From Dehalococcoidia bacterium (lineage in GTDB: Bacteria > Chloroflexota > Dehalococcoidia > Lucifugimonadales > Lucifugimonadaceae), in the NCBI GenBank assembly GCA_009693115.1, contig SHXW01000016.1:1-56590 (forward strand): a DNA stretch of 56,590 nt. Reading direction: 5' to 3'. The notes under the pieces were generated by a model that saw nothing but the letters and a program-made list of their open reading frames with translations, was not told the DNA's origin and ran no database searches. Below, one piece after another: positions 6,728-38,063 of this stretch (within the stretch, counting starts at the first letter, position 1; each line of letters begins with the position of its first letter). Made by a program: the position numbers and the translations under genes.

Positions 6728-6763
6728 CTGATCCTGCGTCTGGGAAGGACGCGGAAACAAGAT

Positions 6764-6948
6764 CTCCCGGTGTCGGCTGACGGCCCGAAAAGGCTCAGGC
6801 CGCTGAAACGGGAAAGCGGTGTGATTCCGCTGCGGTGGCGCCACTGTGACCGGCGAGCTGCCCGCACCAAAGCCACTGTTTCGGCACGACCGGGACGGGA
6901 AGGCGCGGGGACAGCTTTGACCCGGGAGCCAGGAGACCTGCCGGGAGA
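6764..6948 (+). ncRNA. Cobalamin riboswitch upstream of btuC
   Basis: The segment shows the conserved elements in order: a GGTGTGATTCC-type core near 6818, GCCACTGT at about 6842, a second GCCACTG near 6873, and the B12 box GCCAGGAGACCTGCC at 6929-6943. P1 closes with CTCCCGG (6764-6770) against CCGGGAG (6942-6948). It is followed by an expression platform that ends in an intrinsic terminator at 7060. Binding of adenosyl- or methylcobalamin is expected to reduce expression of the uptake genes downstream. Confidence 0.95.
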
Positions 6949-7059
6949 AGTTGCATGACCGCTCCCCGCTTCAGGGAGCCCTCAGCGATCACCCGTCGGC
7001 TGTGTTGTCCCGGCCCCTGTGACAGGGCGAGGCGACTGCTGCACTCACTGATCATCTGG

Positions 7060-35719: not shown

Positions 35720-36886
35720 CTACCCGCTCTTCACTGGCGCAGCCTTTGCCGCTTCGATCAGGATGTCTGCCACTTCGGCGCGGGTGAACTCGGAAGGCGG
35801 GCGCTGTCCGGCGGCGAGCATCTCGCGCACCTTCGTCCCGCTGAGGTTGATGCGGTCCGTCTCGAGGTGCGGGCAGGTCTTCGCTGTGCCCATGTTGCCG
35901 CAGGCCTTGCAGAAGAATGAGTTCTCGAAGAACATCGGCCGGATGCCGATGGCCGCAGCGTCGAACTCGCCAAAGATCTTCTGGGCGTCATAAGAGCCGT
36001 AATACGTGCCCACTCCGGCGTGGTCCCGACCCACAATGAAGTTGGTGCAGCCGTAGTTCTTGCGGCAGATGGCGTGGAAGATGGCTTCCTTCGGCCCGGC
36101 GTAGCGCATCGAAGCCGGGAAGGTCGAGAGCAAGGTGCGGGTGGCAGGGTAGTACTTTCCAAGGAGGGCGTGGTAGCAGCGCATCCGCACCTCGGCGTCG
36201 GTATCCCCTGCCTTCGTCTCGCCGACGAGCGGGTGAACCATGAGGCCATCAACGAGCTCAAGGGCGCACTTCATGATGTATTCGTGCGCACGGTGGATGG
36301 GATTGCGGGTCTGGAAGCCGACGACCGTGTTCCACCCCTGTTCCTTGAAAAGAGCGCGGGTCTGCGCCGGAGTGCGGTCGGAGTCGGCATAGACGGGTAG
36401 GGGCTGCTGCGCAAAAGCCTTGACCTTGCCGCCGAGGAGCACTTCGCCCTGCTTCATCACAACTGCGACGCCAGGGTGGGCTTCGTCAGTGGTGCGGAAG
36501 ATGTTCTGCGCCTCCTTCGCCTTGTCATAGCCGAACTTGTCTTCAACAGTCAGGCTGCCGAGGATCGCGCCTTCTTGCGTCTTCAAGGCAACCTCAGCGC
36601 CGGGCTTGAGGTGGTCGGCGGTGGCCTTGTCTGTCGAGAGTGTGACCGGGATTGTCCATGGCAGGCCATTCGCGAGGGCGGCGCGTTCGACGACGCCGCG
36701 ATAGTCAGCCGAGTTCATGAAGCCTTCGATGGGCGAGAAGGCACCGATGGAGATCATGCGGAGGTCTGACGTCTCACGAGCGTTCAGAGTGAGCGAGGGG
36801 AGTGAGTGGGCCCGCTTCTTGAGGTCATCTCCCTCGGCGTGGGAAATGATGCGGTCAATGAGTTTTCCGCCGTGAGGTTCGAACAT
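35720..36886 (-). CDS. sat: Sulfate adenylyltransferase (ATP sulfurylase) Sat
   Basis: Makes APS from sulfate and ATP, the substrate of the CysH encoded just upstream. About 388 residues in the homo-oligomeric Sat/MET3 form: QTRNPIHRAHEY (ATP-binding HRAH), GRDHAG, MRYAGPKEA, and a C-terminal zinc-type site FFCKACG...KTCPH. The ATG at 36886 is preceded by AAAGGTGG four bases away. The frame stays open to an ATG at 36937, adding a Cys-rich N-terminus described separately. The gene follows cysH after a 138-188 base gap with a strong hairpin; sat and cysH probably form one operon for assimilatory sulfate reduction. Confidence 0.95.
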   Translation of the reverse strand: MFEPHGGKLIDRIISHAEGDDLKKRAHSLPSLTLNARETSDLRMISIGAFSPIEGFMNSADYRGVVERAALANGLPWTIPVTLSTDKATADHLKPGAEVALKTQEGAILGSLTVEDKFGYDKAKEAQNIFRTTDEAHPGVAVVMKQGEVLLGGKVKAFAQQPLPVYADSDRTPAQTRALFKEQGWNTVVGFQTRNPIHRAHEYIMKCALELVDGLMVHPLVGETKAGDTDAEVRMRCYHALLGKYYPATRTLLSTFPASMRYAGPKEAIFHAICRKNYGCTNFIVGRDHAGVGTYYGSYDAQKIFGEFDAAAIGIRPMFFENSFFCKACGNMGTAKTCPHLETDRINLSGTKVREMLAAGQRPPSEFTRAEVADILIEAAKAAPVKSG

Positions 36887-36937
36887 GCTTCCACCTTTGT
36901 TTGACGAGCAGGGGCACTGCCTACATTGACAGGCCAT
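36887..36937 (-). other. Cys-rich in-frame extension upstream of sat
   Basis: From ATG 36937 the frame reads MACQCRQCPCSSNKGGS and joins sat at its internal ATG without a stop: four Cys codons in the first ten. It may be a true N-terminal metal-binding extension of Sat, or a leader that senses cysteinyl-tRNA. No good ribosome binding site precedes 36937, while one precedes 36886. Confidence 0.45.
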
Positions 36938-37074: not shown

Positions 37075-37818
37075 TTAACGATGTGCTGCCTCGACGACGT
37101 GGAGACCGCACTCCTTGGCGTTAGGGTCGCTCTCCCACCACCAGCGGCCTGCGCGCAGGTCTTCACCTGGCTTGATGGCGCGGGTGCACGGGTCGCAGCC
37201 AATGCTGGGGTAGCCCTGGTCGTGGAGGGCGTTGAAGGGGACAGAGTGCTGGTCCACATATTTGCGGACTTGCTCGAAGGACCAGTTGGCGAGAGGGTTG
37301 ATCTTGTAGAGGCCAAAACCCTGGTCCCACTCGACGATACCGATCCTGCCTCGATCCATTCCCTGGTCGCGGCGGAGGCCTGTCACCCAGGCGTCGAGTC
37401 CGGAAAGAGCACGCTTCAGGGGCTCGACCTTGCGGACACCGCAGCACAGTTTCCGGTTGTCGACCCCTTTATAAAAGAGGTTGTAGCCCTTTTCCTGGAC
37501 CATGTTGGTGACGGCCGTCATCTCCGGCAGAAAGACCTCGATATTGGCCTTGTAGCGGAGCTTCGTCTGGTCGATCACGGTGTAGGTTTCGTTGGGCAGG
37601 CGCAAAGTGTCGAGGGTCATGAGGCGGGCCTTTGAGTTGACGCGCCAATACATGTCATAAAGTGCGACGTCTTCGAGGCCGAACGACGACATCTGGGCGA
37701 TGCGAGCGCCGAAGTGCTTGTCAGCCCAGGCGAGCACATCCCCGGGAGGAGTATTTTCGAACCTGGCGTTGATTTGAACGAGTTCGGCGTCGGGGATGCG
37801 TGTCGCTGTGAAGGTCAT
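37075..37818 (-). CDS. cysH: Fe-S adenylylsulfate (APS/PAPS) reductase CysH
   Basis: This 247-residue reductase makes sulfite from APS. It has SSFGLEDVALYDM in place of the usual SFG-EDxV loop, TLDTLRLPNETYTVID, and the two cysteine pairs CCGVRK and GCDPCTR that hold a [4Fe-4S] cluster in APS-specific enzymes. The ECGLH motif near the end carries the catalytic cysteine. No C-terminal thioredoxin domain is present. ATG 37818 has GGAGGA nine bases upstream. Its transcript begins about 230 bases earlier, with a Cys-rich leader ORF and terminator, so expression is probably controlled by cysteine supply. Confidence 0.95.
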   Translation of the reverse strand: MTFTATRIPDAELVQINARFENTPPGDVLAWADKHFGARIAQMSSFGLEDVALYDMYWRVNSKARLMTLDTLRLPNETYTVIDQTKLRYKANIEVFLPEMTAVTNMVQEKGYNLFYKGVDNRKLCCGVRKVEPLKRALSGLDAWVTGLRRDQGMDRGRIGIVEWDQGFGLYKINPLANWSFEQVRKYVDQHSVPFNALHDQGYPSIGCDPCTRAIKPGEDLRAGRWWWESDPNAKECGLHVVEAAHR

Positions 37819-37921: not shown

Positions 37922-37956
37922 AAAAAAAGCCCCCAGGGCACATAGCCGCAGGGGGC
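37922..37956 (-). terminator. Attenuator terminator in the cysH leader
   Basis: On the minus strand GCCCCC (37956-37951) pairs with GGGGGC (37934-37929), with an inner GGC/GCC hairpin, followed by seven T. It lies 103 bases before the cysH ATG and four bases after the leader ORF stop. Its right half, TGTGCCCTGGG (37942-37932), can instead pair with CCCAGGCACA (37984-37975) over ten base pairs with one bulge. Confidence 0.85.
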
Positions 37957-37960
37957 GAAT

Positions 37961-38044
37961 TCAGGCGTCCGTTGTGTGCCTGGGCTGCACCTCTCCGGTA
38001 GTGGGCACAGTGCAACAATGGCACTTGGACGGTGAAGTCCGCAT
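37961..38044 (-). CDS. Cys-rich leader peptide of the cysH-sat operon
   Basis: A 27-codon ORF (ATG 38044, TGA 37961-37963) encodes a peptide with K-C-H-C-C at residues 7-11. The ATG lies ten bases after the -10 box, so the message is nearly leaderless, and no ribosome binding site is seen. The Cys codons immediately precede segment 1 (TGTGCC, 38009-38004), which can pair with segment 2 (GGCACA, 37980-37975); segment 2 can alternatively pair with the terminator. A ribosome stalled at the Cys codons would cover segment 1 and favour the antiterminator. This is inferred from sequence; the peptide itself is unlikely to have another role. Confidence 0.65.
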   Translation of the reverse strand: MRTSPSKCHCCTVPTTGEVQPRHTTDA

Positions 38045-38054
38045 ACAGCCAAAA

Positions 38055-38063
38055 AGTATAGCA
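38055..38063 (-). promoter_or_regulatory. Extended -10 promoter of the cysH leader
   Basis: TGC-TATACT on the minus strand, with no good -35. The expected start is at about 38047-38049, three to five bases before the leader ATG at 38044. Confidence 0.6.

Follow-up and report, generated by a model that had tools for sequence, protein, structure and literature searches.

A Probable Cysteine-Responsive Leader-Peptide Attenuator Upstream of cysH-sat in SAR202-Type Dehalococcoidia

Introduction

How might a bacterium of the class Dehalococcoidia tie the expression of cysH and sat to its supply of cysteine? The question is raised by a stretch of 56,590 nucleotides, hereafter the window, in which a short open reading frame (ORF) with clustered cysteine codons is followed by an intrinsic terminator and then by these two genes. 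A first-pass annotation had proposed cysteine attenuation at this site. Comparison with related genomes makes it highly probable that the locus is indeed a leader-peptide attenuator, in which a ribosome controls transcription in response to cysteine. Of the original proposal, the Cys-codon leader, the alternative pairing and the control by a terminator are supported; the particular stems that it drew are not.

According to a survey published in 2010, leader-peptide attenuators had been known from Proteobacteria and Actinobacteria alone until the survey itself reported a find in Firmicutes (PMC2965389). Mycobacteria and a few other Actinobacteria do have Cys leader peptides, though ones that lack a terminator (PMC1262725), and in 2015 candidate cysteine uORFs from mycobacteria were presented as the first instances of cysteine-directed attenuation in bacteria (PMC4633059). 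In the openly accessible literature we found neither a cysteine transcription attenuator nor a leader-peptide attenuator from Chloroflexota, and an earlier prediction may exist in subscription papers such as Lopatovskaya et al. 2010.

Architecture of the Element in the Window

All parts of the element lie on the minus strand. It opens with an extended -10 promoter element, TGCTATACT (38063-38055), read directly from the sequence, and a 10-nt spacer separates this from the ATG (38044) of a 27-codon leader ORF, MRTSPSKCHCCTVPTTGEVQPRHTTDA* (37961-38044), which has homologous Cys-cluster ORFs in relatives and ends with a TGA at 37963-37961. Its K-C-H-C-C motif places cysteines at residues 8, 10 and 11, and the putative regulatory codons Cys8-His9-Cys10-Cys11 (TGC CAT TGT TGC, 38012-38023) align with the Cys clusters of relatives. 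Four nucleotides past the leader stop begins the intrinsic terminator hairpin GCCCCCTGCGGCTATGTGCCCTGGGGGC (37929-37956, -18.8 kcal/mol), followed by a run of seven T, likewise read from the sequence (37922-37928). The promoter, the ORF, the 4-nt gap and the terminator agree to the base with the first-pass annotation, as does the gene order. The first gene behind the leader is cysH, encoding (phospho)adenylylsulfate reductase (37075-37818; PF01507, E 1.1e-44), whose ATG at 37818 lies about 100 nt past the T-run; the second is sat, encoding ATP sulfurylase (35720-36886; PF01747 and PF14306), with an ORF that reaches 36937. Because the upstream neighbour is divergent, the terminator cannot be the end of that gene.

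Leader and terminator together fold better than dinucleotide shuffles (z = -2.66). Rfam gave no match at the leader site, and a simple motif scan of the window reported neither this promoter nor this terminator, its criteria being narrow. When the extended -10 pattern plus ATG was sought elsewhere in the genome, the one further match stood before an ordinary transporter-like gene and was set aside as chance.

Two other features of the window deserve mention. A cobalamin riboswitch occupies 6751-6959 on the plus strand (RF00174, 103.7 bits). The cysH-sat operon also contains a second Cys cluster, MACQCRQCPCSSNKGGS, in frame and directly 5′ of sat (36886-36937, minus strand), which could be either an N-terminal extension of sat or an in-frame leader; no counterpart before sat was seen in the relatives examined.

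A Conserved Cys Leader Upstream of cysH

A cysH search of genomes from the same order gave a match in 88 of 250, the named matches within the family including a “SAR202 cluster bacterium” and an “uncultured Dehalococcoidia bacterium”; NCBI places the SAR202 cluster in Chloroflexota, Dehalococcoidia. Upstream regions were taken from 70 cysH loci of the order. With ORFs picked for their Cys content, 49 of the 70 show a short Cys-cluster ORF followed by a terminator hairpin and a T-run, the clusters including NCACTCR, MCTCCCPS, ACTCCCMPS and SCVCCCCCM. The arrangement precedes cysH at most loci of the window's family and occurs in about ten families of the order. Since choosing ORFs by Cys content is circular, a single fixed rule (a T-run at most 110 nt away and three Cys in six residues) was applied both to the relatives and to controls, namely 139 cysH loci drawn from further orders of Chloroflexota and from other phyla. 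Such a leader precedes 36 of the 70 cysH loci of the order versus one of the 139 controls (Fisher 9e-20), and among the cysH loci examined elsewhere in the phylum no attenuator was found.

Nearly all relatives have a -10-like hexamer, in many cases TGNTATACT itself, whose last base lies 4-10 nt 5′ of the leader start. A Shine-Dalgarno site would not fit into so short a stretch, and translation of the leader ORF probably begins at or very near the 5′ end of the transcript, which would be leaderless or almost so.

The Alternative Pairing and Its Partner

What could the leader do to the terminator? In relatives, a G-rich segment begins shortly past the Cys codons, ending near the leader stop in the window's family, and its bases complement those of the terminator's C-rich 5′ arm (CTCGGAGGGG with CCCCTGCGAG in the leaders L004, L005 and L007). 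The 49 cysH leaders form duplexes with their own 5′ arm at a mean of -17.36 kcal/mol, versus -14.38 when arms are swapped between genomes (0/20,000 permutations). Much the same holds for 38 non-cysH leaders (-17.56 versus -14.44 permuted; 0/20,000), a replicate set found by a model of terminator pairs only, in the choice of which complementarity to the leader played no part. A register test was anchored solely on the longest G-run and C-run, the bases flanking them being scored. These pair in register 0 (0/10,000), with no signal in registers -1, +1 and +2 and a weak excess in register -2 (50/10,000); with one sequence per genus the fraction for the test is 0.003, and all these permutation results are inflated by relatedness, part of which the controls take out. 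The predicted alternative pairing, between a leader segment and the terminator 5′ arm, is thus backed by covariation at the family level. Relatives accordingly display what the first-pass annotation had looked to them for, a conserved leader ORF, a T-run and a covarying alternative stem, the latter made with the 5′ arm.

That the covarying partner is a terminator arm and no Shine-Dalgarno site bears directly on the possibility of translational control, in which stalling would alter how accessible the ribosome-binding site of cysH is, the hairpin being incidental. The polycysteine uORFs of mycobacteria, which are leaderless, are reported to work in this manner (PMC9031893; PMC13236596). Here, by contrast, the leaders are followed at essentially all loci by a strong terminator with a T-run, and the cysH start lies well beyond it, at the distance given above; such control is therefore improbable as the explanation of this locus.

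A little less probable again is the pairing of the first-pass annotation, an antiterminator CCCAGGCACA formed with the terminator 3′ arm TGTGCCCTGGG and specific to this genome. It had placed a segment 1 at 38009-38004 and a segment 2 at 37980-37975, and both are found there; segment 2 was to pair either with segment 1 or, as part of a longer strand (37984-37975), with the 3′ arm. In the window the ten pairs with one bulge do exist, and this duplex is stronger than the one with the 5′ arm (-17.9 versus -14.0). It does not rise above shuffles, however (z -0.6), and by the time its partner has been transcribed the local terminator hairpin is already closing. Nor does the family lend it any signal: the 49 cysH leaders show no preference for their own 3′ arm over permuted ones (7,754/20,000), and the 38 other leaders are equally flat (5,473/20,000). 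As to the pairing of segment 1 with segment 2, a stem of this type is present in the minimum free energy (MFE) fold of the window and shows no general covariation in the family (1,432/10,000).

A GCGCGC-like element is common directly 3′ of the leader stop in most leaders. Its tendency to pair with the Cys-codon segment is weak (10/10,000), and for the pre-terminator segment there is no such signal.

Ribosome Position and Nascent RNA

Equilibrium folding with ribosome masks did not discriminate between states, for the finished terminator wins every one of them in most leaders. As the complete terminator is favoured at equilibrium, any switch must be kinetic, and folding was done instead on nascent RNA, before the 3′ arm exists. 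Under these conditions the 5′ arm pairs more with the leader when the ribosome stands at the Cys codons than when it stands at the stop codon, in 45 of 49 cysH leaders and in 37 of 38 others, a difference that is partly geometrical because less of the leader is free with the ribosome at the stop. Compared with shuffled leaders, stalled-state pairing over all 87 is modestly higher (0.59 versus 0.51; Wilcoxon 3e-4).

For the window, nascent pairing between the 5′ arm and the leader amounts to 0.40-0.73 in the stalled state, and to 0 both with the ribosome at the stop and without a ribosome. With the ribosome at the last Cys codon, the nascent MFE fold pairs CCGGAGAGGTGC (37987-37998, minus strand) with GCCCCCTGCGG around a small hairpin, CAGGC...GCCTG (37962-37982, minus strand), itself a folding prediction only. 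The segment CCGGAGAGGTGC has the same position as CTCGGAGGGG in relatives, and its pairing with the terminator 5′ arm GCCCCCTGCGG is the likely antiterminator of the window.

The footprint of a ribosome was taken to extend about 12 nt past the stop codon (PMC4833913). In L272, a leader from the window's own genome, the antiterminator lies about 20 nt past the leader stop, outside the cover of a ribosome at that codon, so that details vary between loci.

Other Genes Behind the Element

A covariance model, R1, was built from 25 cysH leaders using seven terminator pairs only and searched against 247 genomes of the order. Besides cysH leaders it returned many others, with E values down to 1e-14, and 40 non-cysH sites were read. 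Nearly all of them have a Cys-cluster ORF in frame with an ATG or GTG near a -10-like hexamer. In about half (e.g., L254, L276 and L288) the next gene encodes a DUF4395 membrane protein, of a family of unknown function with Cys-x-x-Cys motifs; being the commonest gene behind these leaders, it is suggested by its position to have a role in sulfur or cysteine metabolism. Sulfite reductase follows L280 and L272, the latter with the leader MKLCFRPNCAC; further leaders in the window's genome were sought by covariance model only. Elsewhere the element precedes a Cys/Met PLP enzyme gene (L265), a Sulf_transp gene for thiosulfate uptake followed by TusA and rhodanese genes (L277), ThiF and then cysteine synthase (L286 and L287), and a TauE gene (L285). 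In L289 (301-450) a leader with six consecutive Cys codons, MKFYLTQTCCCCCCQNDNGVTSRV, stands before an AhpC-type peroxiredoxin gene, a possible link between cysteine supply and redox defence.

Could the small ORFs instead encode functional Cys-rich peptides, for metal or redox purposes, with the terminator merely setting a low level of operon expression? The peroxiredoxin gene behind one leader would suit this, as would the peptide MIYRSTMCACCCTTRRGG, strongly conserved in one genus. Across the family, however, the peptides are almost wholly divergent outside the Cys cluster, and what is kept after the cluster is complementarity to each leader's own terminator, which makes a peptide function very unlikely to account for the element.

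Several sites stand apart. One genus (L257, L261, L266, L279, L281, L283 and L291) has a strongly conserved Cys leader and terminator preceding a small ORF of about 45-50 aa, which ends in ...TVSAFRRLINAVDGLGIEP and has its own terminator. In L264 (genome G075) the Cys leader and terminator have no codirectional gene within about 1.2 kb, and this copy may therefore be an orphan or act in trans.

Outside the order the element is rare. Run on 400 phylum-wide genomes, R1 gave matches in only five genomes besides the window's. One of these matches, L293, comes from another order of the class: a clear Cys leader there precedes the gene for an ABC transporter substrate-binding protein and shares its contig with cysH. 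Two further sites were noted in other Chloroflexota: L295 (1501-1664, minus strand), outside the class, has an Arg-rich leader, MQRPVRDRRRRAPAC..., and a terminator before an argC-like gene, and L294 (1501-1580) has a short ORF and a terminator before a dihydroorotase-like gene. Attenuators may thus be common in Chloroflexota.

The Window as an Atypical Member

A second covariance model, R2, was built from 24 relatives with the window excluded, and over the whole 56.6 kb its sole match is the element described here (E 3.6e-4). The window is nevertheless an atypical member of the attenuator family. Its predicted antiterminator with the 5′ arm lacks a GGG run, contains two mismatches and is no better than shuffles (z +0.5 for the duplex, p 0.22 for the nascent fold). 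The distance from leader stop to hairpin is 4 nt, versus 16-64 nt in relatives; a terminating ribosome would hence cover the left arm, a difficulty that the first-pass annotation had rightly raised. Chance, that is, a GC-rich spacer in which a Cys-containing ORF happens to occur, would fit the non-significant antiterminator of the window taken alone, and is refuted at the family level by the leader counts in relatives and controls and by this independent-model match, which leaves it hardly any probability.

Proposed Mechanism and Significance

The attenuator reading implies the following order of events. RNA polymerase would start a few bases 5′ of the leader ATG, giving the leaderless start suggested by the promoter spacing, and a ribosome would translate the Cys-rich leader close behind it. 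When cysteinyl-tRNA is plentiful, the ribosome would reach the stop codon and cover the segment past the Cys codons, leaving the C-rich arm to form the terminator, and transcription would end before cysH. When cysteinyl-tRNA is short, the ribosome would presumably stall on the Cys codons and leave the post-Cys segment free to pair with the emerging C-rich 5′ arm; this antiterminator would allow cysH-sat to be transcribed. The direction of the response to cysteine is what we infer from this scheme. Comparative evidence supports its framework, that is, the conserved Cys leader with its terminator, the covariation of antiterminator and 5′ arm, and the recurrence of the element before sulfur and cysteine genes.

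The distribution of the element points further. In this order of SAR202-type Dehalococcoidia, the genes of sulfur and cysteine metabolism likely form a regulon controlled through many separate Cys leader-peptide attenuators of the leaderless kind, where CysB, CymR or SAM riboswitches serve in other bacteria; besides sulfate activation and reduction, the regulon would likely take in sulfite reductase, thiosulfate uptake and cysteine synthase, and perhaps peroxiredoxin. SAR202 bacteria, an abundant group in the ocean, are for the most part uncultured. A sensor of cysteine supply that can be read from sequence would tell which of their sulfur genes respond together, and the covariance model allows a test in metatranscriptomes, where short leader RNAs with a 3′ end at the T-run can be sought. 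The element suggests, too, that transcription attenuation can go together with leaderless initiation.

Comparison with Known Systems

The classical attenuators (trp, his and ilv in Proteobacteria; trp and ilvB in Actinobacteria) share with the present element a leader ORF containing codons for the end product, an intrinsic terminator, and a leader segment that pairs, as the alternative fold, with the terminator 5′ arm. Compared with them, the Dehalococcoidia element would sense cysteine, is apparently leaderless, and has no general 1:2 stem that we could find.

The polycysteine uORFs of mycobacteria (Canestrari et al. 2020; Seliverstov et al. 2005, PMC1262725) are leaderless short ORFs with Cys-codon clusters before cys operons, which the probably leaderless Cys-cluster ORF described here resembles. 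The mycobacterial leaders lack obvious terminators (PMC1262725) and are reported to act on translation, whereas here the Cys cluster is followed by an antiterminator segment that covaries with an intrinsic terminator.

A third comparison is with the ilvB1 attenuator of M. tuberculosis (PMC13236596). It differs in its branched-chain amino acid (BCAA) codons, its leadered transcript and its phylum, yet the model proposed for it is the same: a ribosome at the stop codon masks the antiterminator, and a stalled ribosome frees it.
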